This document shows positions 24,084 to 40,864 of a stretch of DNA of 64,000 bases, piece by piece (position 1 is the stretch's first letter; the number at the start of each line of letters is the position of its first letter). Under the pieces are notes generated by a model, which was given only the letters and a program-made list of their open reading frames with translations, searched no databases and had not been told where the DNA came from. Made by a program: the position numbers and the translations under genes. Origin of the DNA: Rhodobacteraceae bacterium KLH11 (GTDB lineage Bacteria > Pseudomonadota > Alphaproteobacteria > Rhodobacterales > Rhodobacteraceae); contig DS999532.1 of NCBI GenBank assembly GCA_000158135.1, positions 358,263 through 422,262 on the forward strand. Reading direction: 5' to 3'.

Positions 24084-25481
24084 TCACTTATATCGTTGCG
24101 TCAGCGCTGCGGCTGTGCCGGTGTCTTCGGCGGGTTGAAGATCTTTCTCGTCCATCTGGGACAATACGTGATCGACCAGTTCCCGCAGATTTGAGGGATC
24201 ATCATAACGACGGACATCATTGGCCAGCAGGCGCGCGTTCAACTCGGCCCGAACAGCATATAAAACGGCCTGATTGTTTGCGATGTTGTCTCCATACTCC
24301 AGCTCGGCCAGTCGTTTCCCGATGACATAGGTCGGAGCCCAGCTTGGCATCAACTGATAGCCGGATTTTCGCCCGATCAAAGCAGGGTCCAGATCGCGGG
24401 GCTGGTCGGTCTGCTCAAAATACTTGTCGACATAAAGATAAGCGCGCTCACCCACGACAGGGGTGTTGGGTGGAATTTCGCAATGATCATGCACCCGCCA
24501 CATACGCTCGGCTGCTTCCTGAAACTTAACGGTATCGAATTGCTCGGCCACGTGTTTGTTTCCGGCGCGCATCAGGTTGGTCAGGAACATCAGCGCAGAT
24601 CCATGCCCACCTTGCGCCGCCTGCGGGGTAAACCCGGACCAGACGCCGTCACCTCCGGCCAGAATGCATTCCAGCGTGGCAGCATCTTCGGTGCCATTGC
24701 CCAAATGCGGATGCGCCAGAATCTTGCGCGGGCGCGGGTTGTATTCCCGCATCAGGCGTACAAGTGCGAAGGTTTCAAACGGAAAGCGCGTTCCTTTGAC
24801 ATCCTCAAACAGAATCCCGTTGATGTCTTCCTCGCCCAGCATCTTGAGAACAGCCACCAGATGGCGGGGATCATTGTCATATGTCTCCAGACAGTCGCCA
24901 ATACGGATATATATCCGGCCATTGCGCCCGTCATGCGCGGGCAGCAGTCTGCGGTATTCACGAATATGGGCGCGCAAATCGTCAATGCATTTCTGGTTAT
25001 CGACACCCATCTCGGACAGAGTCGCCGGATTGATCTCGACCAGCAGGATGACATTGGGGATGCCGAACTTCACCGTCTGGGTTGCCGCCGGGCCCATTGG
25101 AAACGGCGCGCCATCCTGCAATGGCTCAACTGCGATCGTGGTGAAGAACGGATCAAGAGGGTGCCCGTGTTCAGCCATGTATTCAAGGAATTTATCGGCA
25201 ACAGAGGGGAAGCCGAAGAAATTTGCCAACCCGAAATCCTTGAACCCCAGACCACTTGCCACTTCGTGCAGTTCGATCTTGTCCGCAAGCGTGTGCCCGA
25301 AATACGAAGACAACGTCGCCTCGCGCGAGGACATGTCGATCAGATAAGGTTCCGCATCGCGCAAAAGGGCCACCCGGTCCTCAATATATGACGACATGTC
25401 CTGCAAGCGGGCCTCATCCTGGGGTGTGAGTTCGCATGCATTTTTTGCATCTGTTTGACGGCTGATCTGTTCGCTGGCCAT
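24084..25481 (-). CDS. Uncharacterised DRE-TIM (HMGL-like) family protein with altered DRE motif
   Basis: 465 residues, no signal peptide or membrane segment. I do not recognise a named family. The layout recalls DRE-TIM metallolyases/synthases: an early strand YLIDMSSREAT (SRE at residues 52-54 where the family has DRE), ELHEVASGLGFKDFGLANF after it, GILFEDVKG near 222-230, and a late HPHLGNG (257-263) where the family has a metal-binding HxH. GGDGVWSGFTPQAAQGG then follows. An ordinary HMG-CoA lyase is about 300 residues; here about 170 extra residues form a helical C-terminal region. First gene of an operon with an aldehyde dehydrogenase, divergent from a LysR regulator. The fold call is inference from motif order. 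Confidence 0.6.
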   Translation of the reverse strand: MASEQISRQTDAKNACELTPQDEARLQDMSSYIEDRVALLRDAEPYLIDMSSREATLSSYFGHTLADKIELHEVASGLGFKDFGLANFFGFPSVADKFLEYMAEHGHPLDPFFTTIAVEPLQDGAPFPMGPAATQTVKFGIPNVILLVEINPATLSEMGVDNQKCIDDLRAHIREYRRLLPAHDGRNGRIYIRIGDCLETYDNDPRHLVAVLKMLGEEDINGILFEDVKGTRFPFETFALVRLMREYNPRPRKILAHPHLGNGTEDAATLECILAGGDGVWSGFTPQAAQGGHGSALMFLTNLMRAGNKHVAEQFDTVKFQEAAERMWRVHDHCEIPPNTPVVGERAYLYVDKYFEQTDQPRDLDPALIGRKSGYQLMPSWAPTYVIGKRLAELEYGDNIANNQAVLYAVRAELNARLLANDVRRYDDPSNLRELVDHVLSQMDEKDLQPAEDTGTAAALTQRYK

Positions 25482-25605
25482 AATATCCCCCTCGCGGATG
25501 CCTCATAGTCGCATGAACCCGGCTGAATATCGCTGTTTTCTGTGCTCTTTGGCACGGTTTCAGTATTTTCGTTGTCAGCGTCAACGTGTATTGGTGAGAG
25601 AGCCA

Positions 25606-25624
25606 TACTCATTTGTTATGAGTA
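25606..25624. promoter_or_regulatory. Candidate LysR binding site
   Basis: TACTCAT-TTGTT-ATGAGTA, perfect 7-bp arms with a 5-bp centre, 25 bp before the LysR start and 124 bp upstream of the divergent DRE-TIM-like gene. The dyad contains a T-N11-A arrangement. Position fits autorepression plus activation of the divergent operon. Confidence 0.5.
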
Positions 25625-25649
25625 CCACCCTTTCAAAGATGCCGCGAAG

Positions 25650-26570
25650 ATGATCACACACAAGCAGATCGAAGCTTTCAGGATGATCATGATTTCCGGT
25701 TCGGTGACGGCGGCGGCAAAGCTGTTGAATGTATCGCAGCCTGCGATCAGCCGCTTGATCTCGGCCCTTGAATACGAGCTTGGGTTTTTGCTGTTTCAGC
25801 GGCAGAACAGGCAGATGAAGCCAACCCCGGAAGCCGGGGCGTTTTATGCCGAGGTTGAACGCTCTTTCGTAGGGATTGAAAGGCTGCAAAGGTCGGCGGC
25901 CGTCATTCGGCAAAACCGCAGTGGCAAGCTGAACATCATCAGCATTCCAAGCGTAGCACCCAATGTTTGTGTAGAGCTCATCGCACGGGCCACCAAACTC
26001 ACCCCCGATCTGAAAGTCGCACTTGAGGTCTTGCCGTCTCAGACATTGTTCGAGCGCGTGTCTTCCAGCCTGACCGATATCGGGATCACCACCTTGCCGA
26101 TCACATCTCCGGGGATTGAGAAAATCGTTCTGGCGACCGCTCCGGCTGTGTGCCTTCTGCCCGACGGGCACCCGCTTGGGGGGCAAGATCATGTGGCGCC
26201 CGAAGATTTGCGCGACCAGACCTATATCGACTATCGCCGCAGTTCCGATTTTCGCAAACGTGTTGATGCTGTATTTGAAACGGCGCAGGTTGATCGGAAG
26301 ATACAATTTGAGGCAAGCGCGACGCAGCCTGTGGTGCAGATGGTCAAGCAAGGGTTGGGCGTTGCCATCATCGAGCCGAGCTTTTCCAACCTCGACGACA
26401 GGGCAGGGTGCGTGGCCGTCCCGTTCTTGCCCGAGATTGCAGTTGAGCTTTGTATCGTTCACTCAAAGCAAATTTCCACCATTGGTGACATAGAGCGTTT
26501 CATCAACATGGCTGTGAATCATTTCGCGCCGACAAGTATCCACAAGCCGGAAGCCGTGGCCCCCCTGTGA
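25650..26570 (+). CDS. LysR-family transcriptional regulator
   Basis: 306 residues. The N-terminal helix-turn-helix (MITHKQIEAFRMIMISGSVT, AAAKLLNVSQPAISRLISALE) and a substrate-binding domain from about residue 90 are typical in length and order. I start at the ATG at 25650; an upstream in-frame reading would place 36 unrelated residues before the conserved start. It is divergent from the DRE-TIM/aldehyde dehydrogenase operon and lies upstream, same strand, of the glycine-riboswitch operon. The former is the normal target for a divergent LysR gene. The sequence reads as the opine/octopine-catabolism (OccR-like) branch, which is a weak impression. Confidence 0.85.
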   Translation: MITHKQIEAFRMIMISGSVTAAAKLLNVSQPAISRLISALEYELGFLLFQRQNRQMKPTPEAGAFYAEVERSFVGIERLQRSAAVIRQNRSGKLNIISIPSVAPNVCVELIARATKLTPDLKVALEVLPSQTLFERVSSSLTDIGITTLPITSPGIEKIVLATAPAVCLLPDGHPLGGQDHVAPEDLRDQTYIDYRRSSDFRKRVDAVFETAQVDRKIQFEASATQPVVQMVKQGLGVAIIEPSFSNLDDRAGCVAVPFLPEIAVELCIVHSKQISTIGDIERFINMAVNHFAPTSIHKPEAVAPL

Positions 26571-26678: not shown

Positions 26679-26706
26679 TTGACTCACCGCTTTGTTCCTT
26701 ATAGGA
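26679..26706 (+). promoter_or_regulatory. Possible promoter for the glycine-riboswitch operon
   Basis: TTGACT at 26679-26684 resembles a -35 box, with TATAGG at 26700-26705 as a possible -10 (15-bp spacing, short) or TAGGAA at 26702 (17-bp spacing). It ends just before the first riboswitch aptamer, where a promoter must lie if transcription is not only read-through from the LysR gene. Confidence 0.35.
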
Positions 26707-26711
26707 AACTC

Positions 26712-26892
26712 TGTGACGGGAGAGATACAAGAGTATCGCCGAAGGAGCAACCGCCCCGGAAACTCTCAGGCAACCGGACCGTCATCGTAGTTCAAACTCT
26801 GGAAAGCGAGGGCGCAAGTTCTCCGCCCATGGTGTAAGCGCTGATCCATTCAGGAGTGGCGTGAATCTCTCAGGCCAATGACAGAGGGGGCG
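26712..26892 (+). ncRNA. Tandem glycine riboswitch
   Basis: Two consecutive glycine aptamers in the 355-bp gap between the LysR gene and the FAD dehydrogenase. The first shows GACGGGAGAGA, CGCCGAAGGAGCAA, GGAAACTCTCAGGCAA and the closing GGACCGTC. The second begins CTCTGGAAAGCGAGGGCGCA and ends GAATCTCTCAGGCCAATGACAGAGGG; its core GGTGTAAGCG is less canonical than the usual CCGAAGGGGCAA. The linker is short, as in cooperative tandem glycine switches. About 30 bases separate the second aptamer from the GTG start and its AGGAGG site. No strong terminator hairpin is visible there, so control of translation initiation is more likely than transcription termination. Confidence 0.9.
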
Positions 26893-26925
26893 CTGTAAGT
26901 CGCGATCCACGCGAGGAGGAGTGCC

Positions 26926-28179
26926 GTGAACGATACTGTAAGAACCGCAGTTATTGGCGCCGGAATTACCGGAATCACAACAGCTTATCAGTTGGCCCGG
27001 AAAGGCGCTGATGTGACTGTCTTTGAGGCCAATCCCTATCCCGCGATGGAAACCAGCTATGCCAATGGCGGGCAGCTTTCGGCCTCGAATGCCGAGGTAT
27101 GGAACAGCATTCCGACCATGATCAAGGGTGTCCAGTGGATGTTCTCGGCGGGTGCGCCTTTGTTGATGAATCCCAAGCCCTCATGGCATAAGTATTCGTG
27201 GATTGCCGAGTTCATCGGGGCGATTCCCAATTACGAGAAAAACACGCTGCAAACTGTCAAATGGGCTCTGGACGCGCGCAACCAGCTGCTTGAAATGGCC
27301 AAGGCAGAGAATATCGACTTTGACCATGAAGAAACCGGTATTCTGCATTTCTACGAGACAAAGCATCAGTTTGAAGTTGCCGAAAAAGTCACGGCTCTTC
27401 TCAAGAAGGGCGGGCTTGAGCGCCGGCCTGTGACAATCGAAGAGATTGCCAAGATCGAACCCACGCTGAAGGGCGAGATTTACGGCGGTTTCTATACTGA
27501 ATCCGATTTTACCGGCGACATTCACAAATTCACCAGTGCGCTGGCTAAGGCCTGCACCAAACGCGATGTTGAAATGCGATTGTCTACGACGGTCGAGAAA
27601 CTGCGCACCGAGGATGGTAAAATCGCGGTTTTCAGCCGTGTCGAAGACAAGCATGGCAGCTCTTCTCCGGGCCAATCCAAAGAGGTGTTTGACCAGATCG
27701 TTATCTGCGCGGGCGTTCATTCACGCAAATTCGCAGCCATGCTGGGGGATCGCTTGAACATCTACCCGGTCAAAGGATATTCGATCACGATTAACCTGGA
27801 AGATGAGGCCAATCAGGCCGCAGCGCCCTGGACAAGTCTTCTGGACGACAACGCCAAGCTGGTGACCAGCCGTCTTGGTAAAGGTCGCTTCCGGGTCGCG
27901 GGCACGGCAGAGTTCAACGGGTTCAGCAAAGACATCGTCTGGGGCCGGATTGCGCCTATGCTGAATTGGTGTCACCGCCATTTCCCGGGTATGAGCACAT
28001 CCAGCTATATCTCGTGGGCAGGGCTGCGCCCGATGATGCCAAACATGCTGCCACGTGTTGGCAAGGGCAACCGCCCGGGTGTTTTCTATAATACCGGGCA
28101 TGGCCACCTTGGATGGACCTTGTCTGGTGCCACGTCCGACATAATCTCTGAACTTGTTATCAGCGAAAGGGCTGCGTGA
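26926..28179 (+). CDS. DadA-type FAD-dependent amino acid dehydrogenase under glycine riboswitch control
   Basis: 417-residue FAD oxidoreductase of the D-amino acid dehydrogenase/glycine oxidase (DAO) superfamily. The dinucleotide motif VIGAGITGITTAYQLA opens the protein, METSYANGGQLS is the DadA-type flavin region near residue 43, GDIHKFTSALAKAC lies near residue 207, and NTGHGHLGWTLS near the C-terminus completes the FAD site. GTG start preceded by GAGGAGG. It heads the operon with bhcB (overlapping stop and start), bhcC and bhcD. The riboswitch suggests glycine, sarcosine or a D-amino acid that raises glycine as substrate. Oxidation of glycine would supply the glyoxylate that BhcC needs; this role is inference, whereas the family and operon structure are seen. 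Confidence 0.88.
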   Translation: MNDTVRTAVIGAGITGITTAYQLARKGADVTVFEANPYPAMETSYANGGQLSASNAEVWNSIPTMIKGVQWMFSAGAPLLMNPKPSWHKYSWIAEFIGAIPNYEKNTLQTVKWALDARNQLLEMAKAENIDFDHEETGILHFYETKHQFEVAEKVTALLKKGGLERRPVTIEEIAKIEPTLKGEIYGGFYTESDFTGDIHKFTSALAKACTKRDVEMRLSTTVEKLRTEDGKIAVFSRVEDKHGSSSPGQSKEVFDQIVICAGVHSRKFAAMLGDRLNIYPVKGYSITINLEDEANQAAAPWTSLLDDNAKLVTSRLGKGRFRVAGTAEFNGFSKDIVWGRIAPMLNWCHRHFPGMSTSSYISWAGLRPMMPNMLPRVGKGNRPGVFYNTGHGHLGWTLSGATSDIISELVISERAA

Positions 28180-29126
28180 TGACCATACCCACCCTCACTG
28201 ACATGCGGTCTGCGCATGATTTGATTCGTCCTTATGTGCGTCGGACGCCTGTTCGTGTTTCGTCTTATCTGAATGAGCTGACGGGTGCGGAGCTGTTTTT
28301 CAAGTGTGAGAACTTTCAGGAGCCCGGTGCGTTCAAGGTTCGGGGGGCTGCGAATGCGGTGTTTGGGCTGGATGAGGCGCAGGCGGCGAAGGGTGTGGCG
28401 ACGCATTCCTCGGGCAATCATGCGTCCTGTCTGAGCTACGCGGCGATGCTGCGGGGCATTCCGTGCAATGTGGTGATGCCGCGCACGGCGCCGCAGGCCA
28501 AGAAAGACACGGTGCGCCGCTATGGCGGGGTGATCACGGAATGTGAGCCCTCGACCAGTTCGCGGGAAGAGACCTTTGCCAAGGTGCAGGCCGAGACCGG
28601 GGGCGATTTCGTGCATCCCTATAATGATCCGCGGGTGATTGCGGGTCAGGCCACCTGTTCGGCCGAGCTGCTGGAACAGACCGACGGTGTGGACGCGGTG
28701 ATCGCGCCCATCGGCGGTGGCGGCATGGTGTCGGGCACCTGCCTGACGGTATCGAACCTGGCGCCCGAGACCGCGATCTACGCGGCCGAGCCCGAGCAGG
28801 CCGACGATGCCTATCGCAGCTTCAAGGCAGGCCACATCATTGCCGATGACGCGCCCAAGACCATCGCCGACGGGCTGCTGGTGCCGCTGAAGGAAAACAC
28901 CTGGCATTTTGTCTCGAACCACGTGACGGATATCTTCACCGCCTCGGAACAGGAAATCATCGACGCGATGAAGCTGACCTGGAAGCACCTGCGGGTGGTG
29001 ATGGAACCGTCCTCTGCCGTGCCGCTGGCCACGATCCTGAAGAACCCGGATGTGTTCAAGGGCAAGCGGGTTGGTGTGATCATCACCGGCGGCAATGTGG
29101 ATCTGGACAAGCTGCCCTGGATTTAA
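28179..29126 (+). CDS. bhcB: Beta-hydroxyaspartate dehydratase BhcB
   Basis: 315-residue PLP enzyme of the threonine/serine dehydratase fold (type II). PLP lysine is K53 in EPGAFKVRGA, the phosphate-binding loop is APIGGGGMVSG near residue 177 and the C-terminal serine-type motif is TGGNVDLDKLPW. The sequence closely resembles, from memory, Paracoccus BhcB, which converts (2R,3S)-beta-hydroxyaspartate to iminosuccinate. The ATG at 28179 shares its first base with the stop of the FAD dehydrogenase gene; a GTG at 28176 is also possible. Automatic annotation would call it threonine dehydratase. Its neighbours bhcC and bhcD make the beta-hydroxyaspartate assignment firm. Confidence 0.9.
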   Translation: MTIPTLTDMRSAHDLIRPYVRRTPVRVSSYLNELTGAELFFKCENFQEPGAFKVRGAANAVFGLDEAQAAKGVATHSSGNHASCLSYAAMLRGIPCNVVMPRTAPQAKKDTVRRYGGVITECEPSTSSREETFAKVQAETGGDFVHPYNDPRVIAGQATCSAELLEQTDGVDAVIAPIGGGGMVSGTCLTVSNLAPETAIYAAEPEQADDAYRSFKAGHIIADDAPKTIADGLLVPLKENTWHFVSNHVTDIFTASEQEIIDAMKLTWKHLRVVMEPSSAVPLATILKNPDVFKGKRVGVIITGGNVDLDKLPWI

Positions 29127-29189
29127 CCTGAACTCTCAACCGCGTCCGCAGGGCTGGGGCCCGGGATGTGCATTAGACCGGAGAAGACC

Positions 29190-30353
29190 ATGAACAAACC
29201 TGTAAATCTGGAAGATCTTGAAGTTGGCTATGACGTGCCCGCGCTGCCGGGTATGGATGAGGCCGACATCCAGACCCCCTGCCTGGTGCTGGATCTGGAC
29301 GCGCTGGAGCGCAACATCGTCAAGATGGGCGATTATGCCAAGGCGCATGGGATGCGTCACCGGGTGCATGGCAAGATGCACAAATCGGTTGATGTGGCCA
29401 AGCTGCAGGAAAAGCTGGGCGGCGCGATTGGCGTGTGCTGCCAGAAGGTCTCTGAGGCCGAAGTGTTTGCCCGTGGTGGCATCAAGGATGTTCTGGTCTC
29501 GAACCAGGTGCGTGACCCGGCCAAGATCGACCGTCTGGCGCGCCTGCCCAAGCTGGGTGCGCATGTCATCGTCTGCGTTGACGATGTGGACAATGTGGCC
29601 GATCTGTCGGCGGCGGCTGTCAAGCACGGCACCGAGCTGAGCGTATTTGTCGAGATCGATTGCGGCGCTGGCCGTTGCGGCGTGACCACCACGCAGGATG
29701 TGGTTGCCATTGCCCGCGCGGTGGATGCGGCTGACAACCTGAGCTTCAAGGGCATTCAGGCCTATCAGGGCGCGATGCAGCACATGGACAGCTATGAGGA
29801 CCGCAAGGCCAAGCTGGACGTGGCGATCGACATGGTCGAAAGCGCGGTTCAGGGCCTCAAGGCTGTTGATCTGGAGCCCGAGCTGGTCTCGGGTGGTGGC
29901 ACCGGGTCATATTACTTCGAGTCCAACTCGGGCGTGTATAACGAGCTGCAATGCGGATCGTATGCGTTCATGGACGCCGATTACGGCCGTATTCTGGACA
30001 AGGATGGCAAGCGCATCGACCAGGGCGAGTGGGAGAACGCTTTCTTCATCCTGACCTCGGTGATGAGCCACGCCAAGGCAGACAAGGCGATCTGCGATGC
30101 GGGCCTCAAGGCGCAATCGGTCGATAGCGGGCTGCCCTTCATCTATGGCCGTGATGATGTGGAATACGTCAAATGCTCGGACGAGCATGGCGTGATCGCA
30201 GACCCGGATGGCGTGCTGAAGGTGAACGAAAAGCTGCGTCTGGTGCCGGGCCATTGCGACCCGACCGCCAATGTCCATGACTGGTATGTGGGCGTGCGGG
30301 GCGGCAAGGTTGAAACCGTCTGGCCGGTTTCGGCGCGCGGCAAGGCCTACTGA
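29190..30353 (+). CDS. bhcC: Beta-hydroxyaspartate aldolase BhcC
   Basis: 387-residue PLP- and metal-dependent aldolase of the D-threonine aldolase/alanine racemase-fold family. It joins glycine and glyoxylate to give (2R,3S)-beta-hydroxyaspartate. PLP lysine is K62 in HGKMHKS, a conserved CGAGRCGV segment is near residue 160, and the C-terminal metal-binding VPGHCDP is near residue 356. The long nearly invariant stretches (IQAYQGAMQHMDS, SGGGTGSYYFES) match Paracoccus BhcC as I know it. The ATG at 29190 follows GGAGAAG; an earlier in-frame ATG has no ribosome site. Codon use is strongly biased to CTG, AAG and GGC compared with flanking genes, a sign of high expression. Confidence 0.92.
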   Translation: MNKPVNLEDLEVGYDVPALPGMDEADIQTPCLVLDLDALERNIVKMGDYAKAHGMRHRVHGKMHKSVDVAKLQEKLGGAIGVCCQKVSEAEVFARGGIKDVLVSNQVRDPAKIDRLARLPKLGAHVIVCVDDVDNVADLSAAAVKHGTELSVFVEIDCGAGRCGVTTTQDVVAIARAVDAADNLSFKGIQAYQGAMQHMDSYEDRKAKLDVAIDMVESAVQGLKAVDLEPELVSGGGTGSYYFESNSGVYNELQCGSYAFMDADYGRILDKDGKRIDQGEWENAFFILTSVMSHAKADKAICDAGLKAQSVDSGLPFIYGRDDVEYVKCSDEHGVIADPDGVLKVNEKLRLVPGHCDPTANVHDWYVGVRGGKVETVWPVSARGKAY

Positions 30354-30373
30354 GATCCACCACAATAAAGAAC

Positions 30374-30403
30374 CGGGGCGGCGCAACAGACCGCCCCGTT
30401 TTT
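30374..30403 (+). terminator. Terminator-like hairpin between bhcC and bhcD
   Basis: CGGGGCGG and CCGCCCCG arms with a 9-nt loop followed by TTTTT, 20 bases after the bhcC stop. This is a well-formed intrinsic terminator inside the bhc cluster. It either gives partial termination, so that BhcD is made at a lower level, or means that bhcD has its own promoter in the 35 bp that remain. Confidence 0.75.
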
Positions 30404-30437
30404 ATGTTCTGCTGAACTGATTGAAAGGCACGAGACG

Positions 30438-31403
30438 ATGATCATCGTTCCCGAGAAGGAAATCGGCGCCCTGCTGGGCCGGAAGGAAAGCTATGAAGCG
30501 GTCGAGCAGGTGTTTGCCGCGATGGCATCGGGGGATGCCTATAACTTTCCTGTTGTGCGCGAGGCAATCGGCCATGAAGACGCGCTTTATGGCTTCAAGG
30601 GCGGCTTTGACAAGGCCGGGCAGGTGCTGGGCCTGAAGGCCGGGGGCTATTGGCCGCATAACCTGGAAAAGCGGGGGCTGATCAACCACCAGTCGACCGT
30701 GTTCCTGTTTGATCCCGATACCGGCATGCCGACGGCCATGGTGGGCGGCAACCTGCTGACCGCGCTGCGCACGGCGGCGGCGTCCTCGGTGTCGATCAAC
30801 CATCTGGCGCGCAAGGATGCCAGGGTGATCGGTATGGTTGGCGCGGGCCATCAGGCCACGTTCCAGCTGCGCGCAGCACTGGAGCAGCGTGAGTTTGAGA
30901 AAGTCATCGGCTGGAACCTGCACCCCGAGATGCTGCCCAATATCGAGAAGGTCGCCGCCGAGGCTGGCCTGCCTTTTGAGGCGGTCGAGCTGCCGGGCAT
31001 GACACAGGCGGATGTGATCGTCACCATCACCTCGTCCTTTGCACCGACGCTGCTGTCGGATCACGTCGCCGACGGCACCCACGTGGCCTGCATGGGCACC
31101 GACACCATCGGCAAGCAGGAGGTCGGCACCGACCTGATCACCCGCGCCAGTGTCTTCACCGATGAGGTGGCACAGGCGATCACCCTGGGCGAAAGCCAGC
31201 ACGCGGTGAAAGCGGGCACCAAGGCCGAGGCCGATATCCACCAGATCGGCGCTGTCATCAACGGCACCCATACGGGCCGCAGCTCGGACGATGAGGTCAC
31301 CCTGTTCGACGGCACCGGCGTCGGCCTGCAAGACCTCGCCGTCGCATCCGCGGTGGTCGACCTGGCAATCAAACAGGGCATCGCCATCAAAGTCGACATC
31401 TAA
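30438..31403 (+). CDS. bhcD: Iminosuccinate reductase BhcD
   Basis: 321-residue NAD(P)-dependent enzyme of the ornithine cyclodeaminase/mu-crystallin family. It reduces iminosuccinate from BhcB to L-aspartate, the last step of the beta-hydroxyaspartate cycle. Rossmann motif IGMVGAGHQA is near residues 133-142, K67 in GLKAGGYW is the family substrate lysine, and TLFDGTGVGLQDLA is the C-terminal family signature. The sequence strongly resembles Paracoccus BhcD. Automatic annotation would say ornithine cyclodeaminase. It lies 85 bp after bhcC with a terminator-like hairpin between them and shows the same high-expression codon bias. Confidence 0.91.
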   Translation: MIIVPEKEIGALLGRKESYEAVEQVFAAMASGDAYNFPVVREAIGHEDALYGFKGGFDKAGQVLGLKAGGYWPHNLEKRGLINHQSTVFLFDPDTGMPTAMVGGNLLTALRTAAASSVSINHLARKDARVIGMVGAGHQATFQLRAALEQREFEKVIGWNLHPEMLPNIEKVAAEAGLPFEAVELPGMTQADVIVTITSSFAPTLLSDHVADGTHVACMGTDTIGKQEVGTDLITRASVFTDEVAQAITLGESQHAVKAGTKAEADIHQIGAVINGTHTGRSSDDEVTLFDGTGVGLQDLAVASAVVDLAIKQGIAIKVDI

Positions 31404-31406
31404 ACC

Positions 31407-31433
31407 AAAAAGCGCGCCCAAAAAGGGCGCGCT
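31407..31433. terminator. Bidirectional terminator between bhcD and the M20 amidohydrolase gene
   Basis: AGCGCGCCC and GGGCGCGCT form a 9-bp stem with an AAAAA loop. On the minus strand it ends in TTTT, making a good terminator for the amidohydrolase; on the plus strand it follows the bhcD stop but has only a weak T content. Confidence 0.75.
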
Positions 31434-31461
31434 AATACATCTCAAAACCGGCCAAAATAAA

Positions 31462-32610
31462 TCAGCCTTTGTCCTGAACAGGCAAGCGATCGCGGACCAA
31501 ATGCGTCCAGAACTCAGCACCAATTGGTAACAGCGCATCGTTAAAGTCGTAATCGTTCGAGTGCAGCGGCTGGCCATGCGGGCCGGTTTCGCCATTGCCC
31601 AGAAGCAGGAAGCATCCGGGTACGGCTGCGCTGAAATGGGCGAAATCTTCTGAAAAGCTCATGGGGTCGCGATCAGCAACGGTATCGAACCCCGCTTTTT
31701 GCGCTACACGGATGGCGGCTTCGGTCGGGGTTGGGGCGTTGATGGTCTCGATGAATTCGGTCTTGAAATCCACCTCCACATTGACGCCATGGGCAGAGGC
31801 TATGCCTTTGGCGATCTGGCGCATGAGGGTTTCGATCTGGTTTCGATCCTCGGGGCTGCGGGCCCGTGCATCACCCTTGAGTATCGCCGTGCCGGGTAAA
31901 ACGTTGCGTTGCCCATCTGTCAGAAACTCGGTCACGGATATGACAGCCCCTGCGCCGGGGGCGAGCTTGCGGGCGACAATTGTCTGAAGCGCCAGAACAA
32001 TTTCAGACCCGATCGTAAGCGCATCCCGCCCGGCCTGAGGCATGGATGCGTGACCGCCCTGACCTGTAATCGAAATCTCGAACAGGCTTTCGGAAGAGCA
32101 GATCAGCCCGTTTCTTGTAGAGATTTGTCCGACGGGTGCGCCGGGCAGGTTGTGAATGGCGTAGACCTCTTCGATCGGGAAGCGGCCCAGCACATCTTCA
32201 TCCAGCATGGCCTGCGCACCCAGTCCAAGCTCTTCATTCGGTTGGAACAGGAACACGACAGTGCCACTGAACCCGGGATCGGCAGCCAATGCCTGTGCCG
32301 CGCCCAGCAGCATGGTCGTATGGCCATCATGGCCGCATGCATGCATCACACCGGGGTTTTGTGAGACATAATCATGCTGGCTTGCTTCGTGGATTGGCAG
32401 CGCATCCATATCGGCCCGCAAACCGATGGCGCGGTTGCCTTGGCCTGCGCGCAGGATGCCGACCACGCCGACGCCCTCATGCACTTCCAGCCCCCACTGA
32501 CGCAGCAATGCGGCAATCTTTGCTTTGGTTTCCGTTTCCTGAAAACCCAATTCAGGGAATTTGTGGAACGCCTGTCTTAAACGGCGCAATTCGGATAAAT
32601 CCAGACCCAT
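31462..32610 (-). CDS. M20D-family amidohydrolase (hippurate/N-acyl-amino-acid hydrolase type)
   Basis: 382-residue metallo-amidohydrolase. Metal-binding motifs are clear: ADMDALPI near 65-72, HACGHDGHTTMLLGAA near 91-106, and FQPNEE near 124-129, where most relatives have FQPAEE. A late LHSNDYDF (near residue 353) supplies the last His ligand. I start at the ATG at 32610 with AAGGA upstream; a GTG 12 codons earlier lacks a ribosome site. The family cleaves N-acyl amino acids such as hippurate (releasing glycine), indole-acetyl conjugates or acetyl-diaminopimelate. Converging on the glycine/bhc operon makes an N-acylglycine an attractive substrate, but that is inference. Confidence 0.86.
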   Translation of the reverse strand: MGLDLSELRRLRQAFHKFPELGFQETETKAKIAALLRQWGLEVHEGVGVVGILRAGQGNRAIGLRADMDALPIHEASQHDYVSQNPGVMHACGHDGHTTMLLGAAQALAADPGFSGTVVFLFQPNEELGLGAQAMLDEDVLGRFPIEEVYAIHNLPGAPVGQISTRNGLICSSESLFEISITGQGGHASMPQAGRDALTIGSEIVLALQTIVARKLAPGAGAVISVTEFLTDGQRNVLPGTAILKGDARARSPEDRNQIETLMRQIAKGIASAHGVNVEVDFKTEFIETINAPTPTEAAIRVAQKAGFDTVADRDPMSFSEDFAHFSAAVPGCFLLLGNGETGPHGQPLHSNDYDFNDALLPIGAEFWTHLVRDRLPVQDKG

Positions 32611-32727
32611 TGAAGCTTGATCCTTATTAAGCGTCAGCAGAGCCACGCGGGTGTTGTGTTTCAGACTGATTGGTAGAACACCAAGGCTGCTAGGTCCATG
32701 TGAATGAAGGGGGGGTGCTGACCCATG

Positions 32728-33909: not shown

Positions 33910-34869
33910 ATGTCCCAGAATATCTTCACCGGCACGATGCCTGCCTTGATGACCCCGTGCAAAGCCGATCGCACGCCGGATTATGATGCTTTGGTGAAAA
34001 AGGGCAAAGAGATGATCGCGGCGGGCATGTCTGCTGTGGTTTATTGTGGCTCAATGGGGGACTGGCCGCTTTTGTCGGATGCCGAGCGGATGGAAGGTGT
34101 GGAACGGCTGGTTGCGGCCGGTTTGCCGGTTGTCGTCGGCACTGGCGCCATCAACTCGAAATCAGCCGTGGCCCATGCGGCCCATGCGCAGCAGATCGGG
34201 GCATCTGGCCTGATGGTCATCCCACGGGTACTGTCGCGCGGTTCGTCGGCTGCGGCGCAGAAGAACCACTTTACAGCCATCCTCTCGGCTGCCCCGGATG
34301 TACCCGCCATCATCTACAACAGCCCGGTCTACGGTTTTGCGACACGTGCAGACCTGTTCTTTGCTCTGCGTGCCAGGCATCCCAATCTGGTTGGGTTCAA
34401 AGAGTTCGGCGGCAAAACCGATCTGCGCTACGCCGCCGAACATATCACATCGCAGGATGATCAGGTCACGCTGATGGTTGGCGTCGATACCGAGGTCTAC
34501 CATGGTTTTGTCAATTGCGGGGCGACCGGTTCGATCACCGGTATCGGCACCGCTTTGCCCAAAGAGGCATTGTTGCTGGCGGCCCTGTGTCAGAAAGCGG
34601 CCACCGGTCATGCCGAGGCGCGGAGGCGCGCACGTGAGTTGGAAGAGGCGCTGGGTGTTCTGGCAAGTTTTGACGAAGGCACAGATCTGGTTCTGTATTA
34701 CAAACATCTGCTGGTGCTGAATGGCGAGGCGGAATACCGTCTGCACTTCAACGAAACGGATGAACTGACCAGCGCGCAGCAGAACTATTGCGAACAGCAA
34801 TATTCCCTGTTCCAGAGCTGGTTTGCTGATTGGAGCAGGCAGGGCGGGGTGATTGCCGAGTGCATGTGA
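33910..34869 (+). CDS. DHDPS/NAL-family lyase or deaminase, probable hydroxyproline pathway enzyme
   Basis: 319-residue class I aldolase-fold enzyme. Schiff-base lysine is K164 in GFKEFGGKTDL and the catalytic tyrosine is Y136 in IIYNSPVYG. Next to a 4-hydroxyproline epimerase, the best fit is pyrroline-4-hydroxy-2-carboxylate deaminase (LhpC-type), which gives 2-ketoglutarate semialdehyde. Another possibility is 4-hydroxy-2-oxoglutarate aldolase, which would release glyoxylate. The ribosome site is weak (AGAAGAA). Its stop overlaps the epimerase start, so translation is coupled. First gene of the operon, divergent from the GlxA-type regulator. Confidence 0.83.
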   Translation: MSQNIFTGTMPALMTPCKADRTPDYDALVKKGKEMIAAGMSAVVYCGSMGDWPLLSDAERMEGVERLVAAGLPVVVGTGAINSKSAVAHAAHAQQIGASGLMVIPRVLSRGSSAAAQKNHFTAILSAAPDVPAIIYNSPVYGFATRADLFFALRARHPNLVGFKEFGGKTDLRYAAEHITSQDDQVTLMVGVDTEVYHGFVNCGATGSITGIGTALPKEALLLAALCQKAATGHAEARRRARELEEALGVLASFDEGTDLVLYYKHLLVLNGEAEYRLHFNETDELTSAQQNYCEQQYSLFQSWFADWSRQGGVIAECM

Positions 34870-35792
34870 TCGACAGCCACACCGGCGGTATGCCCACACG
34901 GGTCATTCTGGATGGCGGCCCTGATCTGGGAACCGGGCCGCTGGCCGAACGGGCGATGCGATTGGCAACAGATTACGAACCGTTCTACAAATCCGTTCTT
35001 CTGGAACCACGCGGGCAACCCGGTATGGTTGGCGCACTTCTGGTTGCGCCAAGTGACCCGGCTTGCGCGGCTGGTGTTATCTATTTCGATGCAGACGCGG
35101 TGCTGGGCATGTGTGGTCACGGAACCATTGGTCTTGGCGTGACACTGGCGCATCTGGGCCGGATCGACATTGGAACGCATCGGATCGAAACCCCGGCAGG
35201 TGAGGTTGCGATTGACCTTAAGGACGCCAATACCGTGCAGGTTACGAATGTTGAAAGCCGTCTGGTACATCATGCCGTCACCGTCGAGCCCGAAGGGTAT
35301 GGGCCGGTGACGGGTGATGTGGCGTATGGCGGGAACTGGTTCTTCATTGTTGACCCAAGCCCGATCCCGGTCACGCCTGAAAACATTCGCCCGCTGACGG
35401 ATATGGCGATCGCTATTCGCGCGGCCTGCCTGGCCCGGCAGCTTGGCGGCGAAACCGGTCAACCCGTTGATCACGTTATTTTCCAGAGGTCCTCGCCAAA
35501 TTCGGGTGTCCATAGCCGCAACTTTGTCTTGTGCCCTGATGATGAGTATGACCGCTCTCCCTGCGGTACCGGAAGTTCGGCGCGGCTGGCATGTCTGGCG
35601 GCAAGCGGATGTCTGTCTGCCGGAGAAGAGATCATACAAGAGAGTGTGATCGGAAGTGCCTATCGCCTGTCTTACCAGCCCGGGCCGGGCGGAGGTATCG
35701 TGCCCCGCCTGACGGGTCAGGCGCATATCATGGCGGAAACCACGCTGGTCTTCGCCGAAAATGACCCTTTCCGCATGGGGATCATGCGATGA
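34860..35792 (+). CDS. 4-hydroxyproline 2-epimerase (proline racemase family, Cys/Cys)
   Basis: 310 residues from the GTG at 34860 (a GTG at 34866 is equally possible; both overlap the DHDPS-family gene). The two acid/base cysteines of the proline racemase family are present: C85 in GMCGHGT and C235 in SPCGTGSS. The start HVIDSHTGGMPTRV is typical of 4-hydroxyproline epimerases. It would convert trans-4-hydroxy-L-proline to cis-4-hydroxy-D-proline, the substrate for a D-amino acid dehydrogenase; two DadA-type genes are in the window (26926 and 50172). Followed after 57 bp by a second family member. Confidence 0.87.
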   Translation: MHVIDSHTGGMPTRVILDGGPDLGTGPLAERAMRLATDYEPFYKSVLLEPRGQPGMVGALLVAPSDPACAAGVIYFDADAVLGMCGHGTIGLGVTLAHLGRIDIGTHRIETPAGEVAIDLKDANTVQVTNVESRLVHHAVTVEPEGYGPVTGDVAYGGNWFFIVDPSPIPVTPENIRPLTDMAIAIRAACLARQLGGETGQPVDHVIFQRSSPNSGVHSRNFVLCPDDEYDRSPCGTGSSARLACLAASGCLSAGEEIIQESVIGSAYRLSYQPGPGGGIVPRLTGQAHIMAETTLVFAENDPFRMGIMR

Positions 35793-35849
35793 TCTGCGTC
35801 AGCATCGGAGCGTGCGGTTTGGCAGAACCGGCTTGCCCGGGGTTTTCCG

Positions 35850-36875
35850 ATGCGCAGCAGTAAGACAATTCACGTGATCTCGGCCCATGCCGAAGGCGAG
35901 GTTGGCGATGTTATCGTCGGGGGTGTCGCCCCTCCACCCGGTCAAACCCTGTGGCAGCAACGCAGCCATATCGCGCAGGATGAAACCCTGAGGAATTTCA
36001 TGCTGAACGAGCCGCGCGGGGGTGTCTTTCGGCACGTTAACCTTCTGGTCCCGCCAAAACATCCCGATGCGGACGCGGCGTTCATTATCATGGAGCCGGA
36101 AGATACACCGCCAATGTCCGGCTCAAACTCGATCTGTGTTGCAACGGTGCTGCTGGAAAGCGGGATCATCCCCATGCACGAGCCCGAAACGCGGATGGTG
36201 CTTGAAGCGCCCGGTGGGTTGGTGCGTGTCCGGGCCGATTGCCGTACCGGGAAAGCCGAGCGTATCTTTGTTCAGAACCTGCCAAGTTTTGCTGACAAGC
36301 TGTCCGTCTCTTTGGATGTGCCGGGCCTTGGGGTGATCACAGTCGACACGGCTTATGGTGGTGATAGTTTTGTGCTTGTTGATGCAAAAGCGCTGGGTAT
36401 TGAAATCACCGAAGCCGAAGCAAAGAGACTAGCGCAACTAGGCGTGGCCATTACCAATGCCGCGAATGCGCAATTGGGATTCAGCCATCCCGAACATGCG
36501 GATTGGAACCACATCTCGTTTTGTGCGTTCTGCGGTCCGCTGGCCGAGACCGAAACAGGATGGGCCGGCAAGTCAGCTGTGGCGATCCAGCCCGGCAAAG
36601 TAGATCGGTCACCCACTGGCACCGCAGTGTCCGCGCGCATGGCCGTTCTGGCAGCGAAAGGCCAGATGCGGACCGGTCAGACCTTCGAGGCGGTGTCGAT
36701 CATCGGGTCGCGTTTTACGGGGAGCATCCTTGATGTCACGCAGATCGGCGCGCGCGCGGCCATTGTTCCGGAAATCAGCGGCCGTGGCTGGATCACCGGC
36801 ACGCATCAACATATGCTGGATCCGGATGATCCCTGGCCCGAAGGATACCGCCTTTCTGACACATGGGGCGCCTGA
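35850..36875 (+). CDS. Proline racemase-family protein with Ser/Thr in place of both cysteines, probable trans-3-hydroxy-L-proline dehydratase
   Basis: 341 residues. Aligned by eye to its neighbour, the first catalytic position is S90 ([10 protein letters not shown]) and the second is T256 (SPTGTAVSA). Loss of the second Cys to Thr marks the dehydratase branch, in which trans-3-hydroxy-L-proline becomes pyrroline-2-carboxylate; the Ser at the first position departs from the Cys/Thr pair of the human enzyme. The start [15 protein letters not shown] and the C-terminal ISGRGWITG match this branch. Start ATG at 35850, ribosome site poor. Together with the epimerase it suggests use of both hydroxyproline isomers, as found in collagen-derived material. 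Confidence 0.82.
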
Positions 36876-36964: not shown

Positions 36965-37435
36965 ATGAAGATCGTTTCTGGAGGGCAAACCGGGGTTGAT
37001 ATGGCGGCGTTGGAGTTCGCCCATGCGCAGGGTATCCCCTACGGTGGTTGGGTTCCAAAAGGCAGAACAAACGAAGCAGGTTTGATCCCCGCCGATTTTA
37101 CCGGGCTGGTCGAAACGCAGTCTGAACATGTCGTTGAGAGAACAAGGCTTAATGTTCTGTCCAGCGATGCCACGCTTGTGTTTGTCGATGGATCAATCAG
37201 CCCGGGCACGCAACAGACAATTGTTTTTGCTCAGGAACTTGGCAAACCATATCTGCTTGTTGATATTCGGAAAGGGGTTGAGAGCTGTATAGGTCGGCTG
37301 CAGCTTTGGTTGTGCAATACCCCGGCGGCGATCCTGAATATCGCGGGCCCGCGTGCGTCCGAAGCCCCCGATCTGGGGTCGTATGTGAAGGATGTGCTGC
37401 GGGGATGCCTGCACCAGTTCGTTCAGCCCAGATAA
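36965..37435 (+). CDS. Putative molybdenum carrier / cpYpsA-family protein
   Basis: 156-residue Rossmann-like protein of the molybdenum cofactor carrier/YpsA-related group. The N-terminal SGGQTGVDMAALEFA and GGWVPKGRTNEAG are the family's nucleotide or cofactor contact segments; most members have GVDRAAL, here GVDMAAL. It is a single gene whose 3' end overlaps the convergent thiQ gene by 13 bp. The family's real function is poorly known; the molybdenum label comes from a distant plant-type carrier similarity. Confidence 0.78.
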   Translation: MKIVSGGQTGVDMAALEFAHAQGIPYGGWVPKGRTNEAGLIPADFTGLVETQSEHVVERTRLNVLSSDATLVFVDGSISPGTQQTIVFAQELGKPYLLVDIRKGVESCIGRLQLWLCNTPAAILNIAGPRASEAPDLGSYVKDVLRGCLHQFVQPR

Positions 37436-38115
37436 TCGCGCAAGGCAGGGGGCGGGTTTTCGAACAGCTGTGCGGTTGCGGCCGGAGGATGCGCGATCTG
37501 ATCCGCAACCAAAACCGTTTGGCCGGTGATGCGATGGGCATCCCGCGGATCGTGGCTGACCATCAAAAGCGTGGTGCGGGTTTCGGCAACCAGATCTGCC
37601 ACAAGGTCCAGCATCTCGGCCTTGAGCGCGGGGCCAAGGGCGGCAAAGGGTTCATCCAGCAAAAGGATATCGCGTTTTTGAACAAGTATTCTGGCCAGAG
37701 CCACCCGGCTTTGCTGACCACCTGACAATTCTGCGGGTTTTCGGGCTCCCATCTCTGGCAGGCCAACACGGCAGAGCGCGGCCTCTACCTGTTGCCGGTC
37801 TGCGTCTGATAGACGCCCGTTCGGGCGCAAGCCCAAAGCAACATTCTGTGCAGCATCCAGATGAGGAAACAGGTTTCCGTCCTGAAACAGCATCGCCAGC
37901 GGGCGTTCTCCGGGGGAAAGGGGTGTCAGGGTTTGACCATTCCACGATATCTGCCCGTTGCTCAGATCGCGAAAACCGGCAATGGTTTCCAGCAATGTTG
38001 ATTTTCCCGCGCCAGAGGGGCCGATGATGGCCACGCTTGCTCCGCTCATGATCTGAAAATCGGCGCGCAGCAGGAAATCACCGTTTGCTATGGTGCAATC
38101 GTCAAGCTTCAGCAT
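37423..38115 (-). CDS. thiQ: Thiamine ABC transporter ATP-binding protein ThiQ
   Basis: 230-residue ATPase: Walker A GPSGAGKST near 32-40, signature LSGGQQSRVALAR near 130-142, Walker B ILLLDEPFAALGP near 150-162. Short length and the PFAALGPALKAEM segment fit ThiQ. Last gene of thiB-thiP-thiQ; its start overlaps the end of thiP by 14 bp. The operon is preceded by a TPP riboswitch, which confirms thiamine or TPP as the substrate. Confidence 0.88.
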   Translation of the reverse strand: MLKLDDCTIANGDFLLRADFQIMSGASVAIIGPSGAGKSTLLETIAGFRDLSNGQISWNGQTLTPLSPGERPLAMLFQDGNLFPHLDAAQNVALGLRPNGRLSDADRQQVEAALCRVGLPEMGARKPAELSGGQQSRVALARILVQKRDILLLDEPFAALGPALKAEMLDLVADLVAETRTTLLMVSHDPRDAHRITGQTVLVADQIAHPPAATAQLFENPPPALRDYLG

Positions 38116-39649
38116 GCCAGCGGCCTCCGCGATCCAGAATCCAGAATGCGCCCATCGACAGGATCAGCAACAGCAATGCGCCTCCGGCCGCTGCCTGCAT
38201 CTGGTAAGCCCCCATCAGGCGATAAATCTGCAGGGGCAGCGTGGCGATCCGGGCATCCGCAAACAAGGCGATCACACCCAGATCACCCATGGACAGGGCC
38301 GCTGTCAGGCCAGCGGCAAAACCGATCTGCGGGCGCAGGCGGGGCAGCAGAATCCGTGTAAAGAACGTGTGGTTGTTCATGTTCAGTGACAAGGCCAGCC
38401 GCCCATGCCGGTCAACTGTATCACGGGCGGCCGGCACCAGAATCCGCAAAGCGAAGGGCAGCGCCATAACCGCATTCACAAGGGCCGTGACGGGCAAAGC
38501 CAGATCGGTGGGATTGGCCAGCGGACGGATCAGAACGAACAGCCCCGTCCCAATGACCAGTGGCGAGGCGGCGAGCCCCAGAATACCGCTGAGTTCCACA
38601 ATGCCAGTGCGACCTGTTGCAATGGCTGTGGCCATGGGCAGGGCAAGCAGCAGCAGAATCGCGGTACTCGCCACAGCAACAAGGATTGAGGTGAGTGCGG
38701 CCTGAAACACCAGTATTGGCATCTCGAACACCCCCAGGACACCCGAAATCACGACCGAGGCCAGAGGCAGAAGCAGAAATGCCGTGGCGGCGAGAATCCA
38801 GAGTGTATCCAGAACAGGCGTGCCGCCATCCCAGCGCCGGATCGCCCGGTTCAGCCCCGCGCCAAAGCCGTCGCCCCGGGAAAACTTCAGGGCCGCCAGC
38901 GCGGCAAAGGTGGTCAGCGCCAGCTGTACGGCAGACAAAAGCGCCGCGCGCCCAAGGTTGAAATCATAAGTGAATGCTTGATAGATCGCCAGCTCGATCG
39001 TGGTTGCCCGGGGGCCTCCGCCCAAGGTGAGGGCAACCGCAAAGCTGGTCAGGCAAATGGCGAAGACCACGGCCAGAACACCGGGCAGAATGCGCCGCAA
39101 CATGGGCAGCTCGATCAAGCGGAACATCGCCATGCCGCCACAGCCAAGCTGCGCGGCCAGACGAAACCGCTCGGCCGGGATCTCCTGCCAGCCCTGAAGA
39201 ATCAGACGTGTCGCGAGCGGCAGGTTAAAGAAGACATGAGCCAGAACAACGCCATGCAGCCCGTATATCTGGATGGGTGGCAGCCCGACAGTGCCCAGCA
39301 GGTCCGAGATCCAGCCAGCGCGGCCAAAGACCTGGAGCAGCCCAAGGATTGCGACGATAATCGGCAGGATGAACGGTGCGCCCAACAGGGCGATCAGGGC
39401 GCGTCTGCCGGGAAACCGACGGCGCGCCAGCGCCCTTGCGACGGGCACGGCCAAAGCGGCGCTGAACAGTGCCGATAAGGTGGCCTGCACCAGTGTGAAC
39501 CGGAGCGCGGCCCAGTCGGCGGGGTTAAACCCGCCGCCCGTTTCTGCGCGCAGGGCCACCGTGGCCAGCGTCCCCAGAATCAACGCGGCAACAAGTGAGG
39601 CCGCGCCGATACCGGGCCAGGGGGTTACTGGCTGAGCGCGCCCAGCCAT
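38102..39649 (-). CDS. thiP: Thiamine ABC transporter permease ThiP
   Basis: 515-residue fused double permease with about 12 membrane segments and two binding-protein-dependent transport signatures, one near residue 165 (LQGWQEIPAERFRLAAQLG) and one near 430 in the second half. The fused two-domain length is typical of ThiP. Its start lies 25 bp inside the end of thiB and its stop 14 bp inside thiQ, so the three are translationally linked. Confidence 0.88.
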   Translation of the reverse strand: MAGRAQPVTPWPGIGAASLVAALILGTLATVALRAETGGGFNPADWAALRFTLVQATLSALFSAALAVPVARALARRRFPGRRALIALLGAPFILPIIVAILGLLQVFGRAGWISDLLGTVGLPPIQIYGLHGVVLAHVFFNLPLATRLILQGWQEIPAERFRLAAQLGCGGMAMFRLIELPMLRRILPGVLAVVFAICLTSFAVALTLGGGPRATTIELAIYQAFTYDFNLGRAALLSAVQLALTTFAALAALKFSRGDGFGAGLNRAIRRWDGGTPVLDTLWILAATAFLLLPLASVVISGVLGVFEMPILVFQAALTSILVAVASTAILLLLALPMATAIATGRTGIVELSGILGLAASPLVIGTGLFVLIRPLANPTDLALPVTALVNAVMALPFALRILVPAARDTVDRHGRLALSLNMNNHTFFTRILLPRLRPQIGFAAGLTAALSMGDLGVIALFADARIATLPLQIYRLMGAYQMQAAAGGALLLLILSMGAFWILDRGGRWHAEA

Positions 39650-40605
39650 TCCGAAAGCGCCTGATCCCGCACGGATGCGGCTGTTTCCTGATCAAAAAGC
39701 AGGGATTTCTGCGGTGTGACAAGCGTATCGAACCCTTCGGGCAGGCCGGATGATGGGGTAACAGCCGGATACATCCAGTTTGTCGTTGGAATGATCTGCT
39801 GGAACTTGTCCGAAACCATGAAGGTCAGAAACTGATCGGCCAGTTCGGATTGCTCCGAATTCGCCAGCTTGGCCGCAACTTCAACCTGCATATAATGGCC
39901 TTCGTCAAAGGCCGCTGCCGCTTTGCTGGCGTCTTCTTCGGCAATCACGTGATATGCGGGCGAGGTTGTGTAGCTGAGCACCATGTCAGCCTCGCCCTCA
40001 AGAAACAGCCCGTAGGCTTCGGACCAGCCTTTGGTCACAGTTACGATATTGTCGGCCAGATCAGCCCAGATGGCGGGTGCATCTTCGCCATAGGCCGCCT
40101 TGACCCACAACAGCAGCCCCAACCCGGGCGTGGATGAGCGGGGGTCCTGAATGATGATCTTGGTATCACTGTCAGCCAGCGCGCGGAAATTGGCGGGGGC
40201 CGGGAGGTCAGCATTGTGAACAAATGCAAAGTAACCCCAGTCATAGGGAACAAAAACAGTGTCAGTCCAGTCCACGGGCAGCGTGTAGTCGGCGGTGACC
40301 GAATGGGGGGCAAACAGGCCGGTTTCTTTTGCGGCTGTTATCAGATTGGTATCCAGCCCCAACACAATATCAGCGTCGGTGTTTTTACCCTCAAGACGAA
40401 GGCGTGACAGTAACGCCGCGCCATCCTCGACCCCGACAAGGTTCAGATCGCAGTCACATTCCGCCTCAAACGCTTCTTCCACCTTGGGGCCGGGTCCCCA
40501 GTCGGAAACGAAGCTGTCATACGTATAAACGGTCAACTGGGGTTTATCTGCCGCCACAGCTGAAGTGGCCGCCAGAATTCCCGCAGCAATTGCCAGATGT
40601 TTCAT
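39625..40605 (-). CDS. thiB: Thiamine-binding periplasmic protein ThiB
   Basis: 326-residue binding protein (iron/thiamine type II family). Signal peptide of about 20 residues ends at SAVA-ADK; then LTVYTYDSFVSDWGPGPKV, the standard ThiB opening, and VFVPYDWGYFAFV near residue 125. I start at the ATG at 40605; an in-frame reading to 40773 would translate the riboswitch itself. It is the first gene after the TPP riboswitch. Confidence 0.9.
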   Translation of the reverse strand: MKHLAIAAGILAATSAVAADKPQLTVYTYDSFVSDWGPGPKVEEAFEAECDCDLNLVGVEDGAALLSRLRLEGKNTDADIVLGLDTNLITAAKETGLFAPHSVTADYTLPVDWTDTVFVPYDWGYFAFVHNADLPAPANFRALADSDTKIIIQDPRSSTPGLGLLLWVKAAYGEDAPAIWADLADNIVTVTKGWSEAYGLFLEGEADMVLSYTTSPAYHVIAEEDASKAAAAFDEGHYMQVEVAAKLANSEQSELADQFLTFMVSDKFQQIIPTTNWMYPAVTPSSGLPEGFDTLVTPQKSLLFDQETAASVRDQALSEWLGALSQ

Positions 40606-40647
40606 ATCATCCTCCAATGCGGCGAGAGGGCAAGGAGCGATGAAACC

Positions 40648-40742: not shown

Positions 40743-40864
40743 TGTGATTAGGAGGATTGGCCAGCAACTTCAACCGGATTTAGCGGTTTGACCGGGTATA
40801 GGATGAATCCCCTGAATACGGGTGAGGTAGGGAAAAAGAGGTGTTCTCTGATTTATACGCATAA

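Follow-up and report, generated by a model that had tools for sequence, protein, structure and literature searches.

A Glycine Riboswitch Precedes a dadA-bhcBCD Operon, a Putative Entry Point for Glycine into the β-Hydroxyaspartate Cycle

We analyzed a 64,000-nucleotide stretch of contig DS999532.1 (C5) from Rhodobacteraceae bacterium KLH11, here called the window. At positions 26707-31403, on the + strand, it contains a tandem glycine riboswitch followed by a gene for a DadA-type flavin adenine dinucleotide (FAD) enzyme and the genes bhcB, bhcC, and bhcD of the β-hydroxyaspartate cycle (BHAC). We propose that this is probably a glycine-induced operon that serves as an on-ramp for glycine into the BHAC. 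The arrangement was also found in other genera of the family, behind DadA proteins of 2 lineages.

Gene Content and Control Region of the Operon

The first gene (26926..28179, + strand) encodes an FAD-dependent amino acid dehydrogenase, a proposed glycine dehydrogenase, with a score of 647.9 bits against NF009074/PRK12409 (cut-off 494). It is followed on the same strand by bhcB for β-hydroxyaspartate dehydratase (28179..29126 from an ATG codon, with an alternative GTG start at 28176; NF045641, 573.4 bits, cut-off 550), bhcC for 3-hydroxy-D-aspartate aldolase (29187..30353; NF045642, 766.9 bits, cut-off 690), and bhcD for iminosuccinate reductase (30438..31403; NF045643, 571.6 bits, cut-off 500). 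All 4 frames were open, and each scored above its NCBIfam cut-off. Together with the Rfam scores given below, these values confirmed the one-strand set of a riboswitch, an FAD enzyme gene, bhcB, bhcC, and bhcD that had been described in an earlier note made from the sequence alone. The same note had described the starts as coupled, which held for the first pair only: the dadA/bhcB junction reads TGATG, where the bhcB ATG at 28179 has one base in common with the dadA stop codon, and translational coupling is therefore plausible, whereas gaps of 60 and 84 bases separate bhcC and bhcD, respectively, from the genes before them. The operon contains no bhcA gene, the heading place of which is occupied by dadA, and no divergent IclR-type bhcR gene was identified beside it, the upstream gene being of the LysR type.

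Two glycine riboswitch aptamers of the RF00504 family were identified in series on the + strand, aptamer I at 26707..26791 (58.7 bits) and aptamer II at 26789..26894 (C5:385051-385156; 41.9 bits), both above the gathering score of 32. The score for aptamer II was obtained from a whole-genome search, in which this was the sole glycine riboswitch found in the genome; the window-level cmscan lists aptamer I only, an overlapping same-clan match with a lower score having been omitted there. A hairpin (26889..26925, + strand) in which the GAGGAGG ribosome site preceding the GTG start would be paired is a tentative candidate for the expression platform. It was predicted from a single-sequence fold with an energy of -26.2 kcal/mol (z -1.47), and 15 of 200 shuffled sequences folded equally well. 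A similar hairpin was seen in 5 of 6 leaders, each folded singly, and RNAalifold gave no consensus pair at its position among the leaders. Its role as an expression platform is possible, but weak. No transcription terminator was found between the riboswitch and dadA on the + strand. We predict that the operon is switched on by glycine.

A Second bhc Cluster in the Same Genome

The same genome contains another bhc cluster on contig C6, which consists of a bhcA gene, the product of which scored 729.1 bits (cut-off 650), followed by bhcB, bhcC, and bhcD. It is flanked by a divergent IclR-type gene that scored 333.4 against the BhcR model NF045644, slightly below the cut-off of 350. No glycine riboswitch was identified in the stretch surrounding this cluster (L008). 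The statement in the earlier note that bhcA and bhcR are missing is correct for the window, but not for the genome, and its proposal that the FAD enzyme takes the place of bhcA was rejected for this genome. The note had itself named a bhcA-bhcR locus elsewhere, combined with an FAD enzyme inactive on glycine and sarcosine and an operon not induced by glycine, as findings that would speak against it, and the first half of this combination, the locus, was looked for and found. Because of the bhcR-bhcABCD cluster on C6, the operon in the window is an addition; a rewired bhcA substitute was ruled out here.

The window and C6 copies of bhcBCD share a segment (28194..31444, + strand, in the window) with 99.323% identity over 3251 aligned positions. 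The 22 differences consist of 18 coding substitutions, all of which are synonymous, 3 intergenic substitutions, and 1 intergenic indel, and BhcC and BhcD have the same amino acid sequence in both copies. The expected synonymous share is 0.25 to 0.32 per random change, and for changes that occur freely, the probability that all 18 are synonymous is about 1e-11 to 1e-9. Since all of the coding differences are synonymous, both copies look used.

This match starts with the sixth codon of bhcB. The N-terminus of BhcB is MTIPT- in the window, as it is in several dadA-linked copies, and MLDHVSATDL- in the C6 copy, as it is in the genus. In the phylogenies, the window BhcB protein clustered with the dadA-linked copies (support 90/99), and BhcD clustered with 2 copies from the genus (100/99). 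Five repeat loci and one partial locus (L106) were dropped from the Bhc trees, and the L104 row for BhcB ends at a stop codon, with 13% filled. In approximately unbiased (AU) tests, a grouping of the strain's own copy with the genus was not rejected for BhcB (p 0.282) or BhcC (p 0.445), nor was a grouping with the dadA-linked copies rejected for BhcC (p 0.65). The trees and AU tests single out neither direction of exchange between the window and C6. It was also noted that only one other genome of the genus, G044, contains 2 BhcC proteins above the cut-off (contigs C33 and C23), with a TAA codon in one of the frames.

Recurrence of the Layout with 2 DadA Lineages

To place the operon in context, 54 genomes of the genus and 394 genomes sampled from the family were searched. 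Within the genus, BhcC scored above the cut-off in 50 genomes, and both the glycine riboswitch (strict filters) and the DadA family (E <= 1e-100) were found in this genome alone. Within the family sample, 42 genomes contained a DadA relative at E <= 1e-110, and the neighbors were resolved for all of them, from the locus itself except in G363 and G398, where BhcC was absent or lay on a different contig. The bhcB gene was located directly after dadA in 6 of the 42 genomes (this genome, G351, G151, G382, G205, and G331), and a separate search with the DadA protein of G151 identified a seventh carrier, G225. In total, at least 7 of the 394 genomes have bhcB behind dadA or a dadA remnant, and the notion that the layout is unique to this genome was rejected. 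Among plasmid records, 0 of 209 and 0 of 187 matched records covered 80% of a joint dadA-bhcB query.

The layout was intact in 3 of the 7 carriers, namely this genome, G351, and G151. The bhcB gene of G382 contains a stop at codon 43, the dadA frame of G205 is broken near codon 45, bhcB of G331 is open only to about residue 128-161 with bhcC and bhcD absent there, and G225 has lost the riboswitch and the 5' half of dadA. BhcA was above the cut-off in this genome, G351, G151, G331, and G225, and below it in G382 and G205.

In a phylogeny of 57 DadA proteins, from which rows with fewer than 330 aligned residues were dropped and the incomplete proteins of G205 and G225 were left out, the window DadA clustered with 2 proteins from Rhizobiales and 2 from Sulfitobacter metagenome-assembled genomes, to which it is 71% to 76% identical. 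The DadA proteins of G351, G151, G382, and G331 were placed in a different clade, together with those of G215, G238, and G421. A single clade for the 5 bhc-linked DadAs was rejected by the AU test (5 rows, p-AU 1.73e-7), as was, for these 5 proteins, the idea that the dadA-bhcB junction, DadA included, descends from a single ancestor. Since they do not form one clade, the layout appears to have been put together with 2 DadA lineages. Either bhcBCD joined a riboswitch-dadA unit twice, or dadA was swapped under a standing operon, and under either scenario the pairing of dadA with bhcBCD is favored.

Glycine as the Likely Substrate of DadA

A glycine aptamer was located just upstream of dadA in all 30 loci fetched in the family search (20 of 20 and 10 of 10), and we therefore consider glycine to be the likely substrate of DadA. 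Outside the family, the riboswitch was present at 7 of the 10 dadA loci scanned (of 12 found), and both plasmid loci that were scanned, in Cupriavidus necator N-1 and Agrobacterium, contained it. On the Agrobacterium plasmid, dadA is followed by kbl and tdh, which together convert threonine to glycine. The nearest solved sequences to the window DadA in the PDB are named glycine oxidases (best E 7.7e-13), and glycine oxidases occupied ranks 1 to 6 in a fold search with a predicted model (predicted local distance difference test score, pLDDT, 78.3), followed by a sarcosine oxidase at rank 7. Dimethylglycine dehydrogenases were also among the fold neighbors. The sequence and fold neighbors are in line with glycine as the substrate, short of proof. 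The protein scored 129.5 against the ThiO model TIGR02352, below the cut-off of 250.8. In the available parts of 2 papers, DadA6 of C. necator is called a glycine oxidase (PMC11879842, PMC12421819).

In G225, where the carrier's own dadA lacks the 5' half, a ThiO-like FAD enzyme (L139 11674-12774, - strand; 157.9 bits, cut-off 250.8) is encoded near bhcBCD.

Benzoate Genes and M20 Amidohydrolases in the Relatives

In G151, G351, and G382, the genes were arranged in the order M20 amidohydrolase, MarR-type gene, riboswitch, dadA, bhcBCD, catB, and benABCD, and in G151 a gene for a TRAP-type (tripartite ATP-independent periplasmic) binding protein was located ahead of the M20 gene. The G151 proteins scored above the cut-offs for muconate cycloisomerase (CatB, 498.9, cut-off 334.95), BenA (797.3, cut-off 780.95), BenB (245.8, cut-off 225.55), BenC (507.7, cut-off 430), and BenD (438.3, cut-off 380). 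The catB-benABCD genes follow bhcD in 4 relatives (G151, G351, G382, and G225) and come directly after dadA, without bhcBCD, in G215, G238, and G421. The M20 gene was present at the loci of G151, G351, G331, G215, G238, and G382, where it was cut by the contig end, and none was seen at the loci of G421, G225, and G205. It was also observed that loci L143, L144, and L145 differ from L103, L102, and L104 in whether bhcBCD lies between dadA and catB. These ben loci come from related genera and are alike in other respects, and the difference represents a clean gain or loss of the module.

The combination of an M20 enzyme, Ben proteins, and the glycine operon suggests that these relatives may catabolize hippurate (benzoyl-glycine), which would be split into benzoate for the Ben/Cat enzymes and glycine for DadA and the Bhc enzymes. 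No hippurate-specific model gave a match, and the accessible portions of the hippurate literature yielded no matching gene cluster.

The window also contains a gene for an M20 amidohydrolase, convergent to bhcD (31462..32646, - strand; TIGR01891, 306.9 bits, cut-off 153.75). The protein is 34% identical to the M20 protein of the G151 island, and its PDB neighbors include an indole-3-acetic acid (IAA)-amino acid hydrolase and an N-acyl-glutamine aminoacylase. By analogy, it is possible, if weakly indicated, that it frees glycine from an N-acylglycine.

Proposed Pathway and Alternative Explanations

In the pathway that we consider probable, free glycine would bind the tandem riboswitch and turn on dadA-bhcBCD. 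From some of this glycine, DadA would produce glyoxylate and ammonia by oxidation, with the electrons passed to the respiratory chain, and BhcC would condense the glyoxylate with a second glycine to β-hydroxyaspartate. BhcB would dehydrate this product to iminosuccinate, which BhcD would reduce to aspartate, so that 2 glycine would yield aspartate and ammonia with zero carbon loss. The chromosomal bhcR-bhcABCD cluster would remain the route for glyoxylate and glycolate, and could convert aspartate to oxaloacetate. Expression of the C6 cluster would also be expected to rise with glyoxylate made by DadA, because BhcR is described in the available text of PMC11323563 as a glyoxylate-responsive activator.

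Several observations weigh against this pathway. Gene conversion between the 2 bhcBCD copies could also yield differences that are all synonymous, and the damage to 4 of the 7 layouts indicates frequent loss of the operon. The riboswitch was not seen at 3 loci of Granulosicoccus that encode a DadA relative, the family NF009074/PRK12409 carries the name D-amino acid dehydrogenase, and sarcosine oxidases come close behind the glycine oxidases in a fold ranking based on a model of moderate quality. The published primers for C. necator dadA6 match none of 4 Cupriavidus loci; a link between DadA and dadA6 via these primers failed, with 6 mismatches at best, compared with 5 in an unrelated control stretch. 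Finally, no relative of benA, benB, or benC was found in 184 kb of contig C5, the rest of the genome not having been searched, and the evidence for a hippurate context therefore comes from the relatives.

The alternative that survives best, although we think it unlikely, is that bhcBCD is a gene-dosage or regulatory duplicate that happened to land after a glycine-detoxifying riboswitch-dadA unit to which it is unrelated. The operon would then add BHAC enzyme, and the glyoxylate from DadA would be processed mainly via the chromosomal bhcABCD genes. Both the near-identity of the copies (99.3%) and the 36 of 42 dadA genomes that have no bhcB beside dadA are consistent with such a duplicate. So is the higher frequency of BhcA above the cut-off in genomes with dadA (27 of 42, versus 142 of 352 others; Fisher p 0.0046, kinship ignored), which indicates that dadA co-occurs with the cycle unfused. 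However, a chance landing would not predict that the dadA-TGATG-bhcB junction recurs in other genera and with the other DadA lineage.

We find it improbable that DadA is, as the family name implies, a true D-amino acid dehydrogenase for D-alanine or D-serine, or that it uses β-hydroxyaspartate, which is D at C2, with the switch reporting amino acid excess. The switch belongs to a glycine-binding class, and hydroxyaspartate is not a general substrate of DadA because BhcC is absent from 10 of the 42 dadA genomes (E <= 1e-100) and BhcA is below the cut-off in 15. Marginally less probable again is an action on sarcosine or another N-substituted glycine, in which the switch would sense the product and glyoxylate would come from elsewhere. 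The close fold neighbors, sarcosine oxidases and dimethylglycine dehydrogenases, would suit such an enzyme, but a product-sensing switch ahead of the producing enzyme is less natural in 30 of 30 loci, and kbl-tdh or M20 genes beside dadA already provide glycine. A captured operon that is being lost, and whose retention depends solely on gene conversion involving the chromosomal copy, would account for the damaged layouts but is very hard to reconcile with 4 open frames above their cut-offs in the window and with BhcC and BhcD proteins that do not differ between the copies.

The glycine on-ramp remains our preferred explanation, and the core idea of the earlier note, a glycine-controlled operon that couples a probable glycine-oxidizing flavoenzyme to BhcBCD, is probably right, given its recurrence in other genera, the second DadA lineage, and the riboswitch at every locus fetched in the family; the arrangement is real and meaningful even though the bhcA replacement did not survive. 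A more far-reaching version is a self-standing, carbon-conserving, glycine-switched route from 2 glycine to aspartate and ammonia without BhcA, assembled at least twice in the family behind 2 different riboswitch-dadA units and, in one lineage, forming the glycine half of a complete hippurate island beside the benzoate genes. We offer this version tentatively and lean slightly against it. The BhcA-free linear route is unproven, as both carriers without BhcA (G382 and G205) have one broken operon gene each.

In the literature as far as it was available, the BHAC is described as serving the use of glycolate and glyoxylate. If the proposed pathway is true, the same carbon-saving chemistry would also accept free glycine, and N-acylglycines of which hippurate is an example, as substrates, and the CO2 given off by the glycine cleavage system would be avoided. 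The pathway would also give a widespread family, at present labeled D-amino acid dehydrogenase, a strong substrate hypothesis that can be tested, and would supply ready components for synthetic glycine pathways. In the open-access literature, which leaves most subscription papers outside, we found the glycine riboswitch joined neither with a D-amino acid dehydrogenase nor with hydroxyaspartate, and β-hydroxyaspartate was not joined with growth on glycine.

Other Features of the Window

The gene for the LysR-type regulator upstream of the riboswitch (25542..26570, + strand; PF00126/PF03466) had no homolog beside dadA in 12 loci, and nothing ties it to the operon. Further upstream, a protein of 465 amino acids (24084-25481, - strand) is encoded beside an aldehyde dehydrogenase gene; it had no Pfam or NCBIfam match, and its best PDB sequence match was citramalate synthase (E 0.0016). 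A hydroxyproline catabolic set adjoins the operon at 33910-36875 (+ strand), with a DapA-family gene and genes for 4-hydroxyproline epimerase (549.4, cut-off 450) and trans-3-hydroxy-L-proline dehydratase (627.6, cut-off 550).

A thiamine pyrophosphate (TPP) riboswitch (40638-40743, - strand) was located ahead of an ATP-binding cassette (ABC) transporter set that comprises a binding protein (39625-40773), a permease-like frame, and an ATPase (37423-38115). The window also contains a gene for a muconate-cycloisomerase-like protein (49042-50175, + strand; 218.7, TIGR02534 cut-off 334.95), with a gene for a TRAP large permease nearby (53058-54371), and a cobalamin riboswitch (56988-57195, + strand; 134.6 bits).

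Comparison with Known Systems

The glycine oxidases ThiO/GoxB provided the best fold and sequence matches to the window DadA in the PDB. Unlike them, the window protein belongs to a dehydrogenase-type family and falls below the TIGR02352 cut-off. Glycine oxidized by DadA6 in C. necator reportedly continues through the glycerate pathway, whereas the window operon has BhcBCD instead. The likeness to DadA6 lies in an FAD "D-amino acid dehydrogenase" being proposed, in the accessible text of PMC11879842, for the conversion of glycine to glyoxylate; sequence kinship was not established by the primers.

The riboswitch resembles other tandem glycine riboswitches of the RF00504 family in having 2 aptamers in series above the gathering score. 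The usual targets of glycine riboswitches are gcv or transporter genes, whereas the switch in the window precedes dadA-bhcBCD.

The reference for the BHAC is the bhcR-bhcABCD cluster of Paracoccus denitrificans, as presented in the available sections of PMC11323563 and PMC11166783, and the roles of BhcA to BhcD were taken from the corresponding parts of PMC11166783 and PMC8166194. As in that cluster, bhcB, bhcC, and bhcD in the window are arranged in the same order, and their products score above the equivalog cut-offs. In contrast to it, the window operon lacks bhcA and bhcR and has a glycine riboswitch and dadA in front, with the canonical cluster located elsewhere in the genome. The operon represents a new form of BHAC gene cluster.

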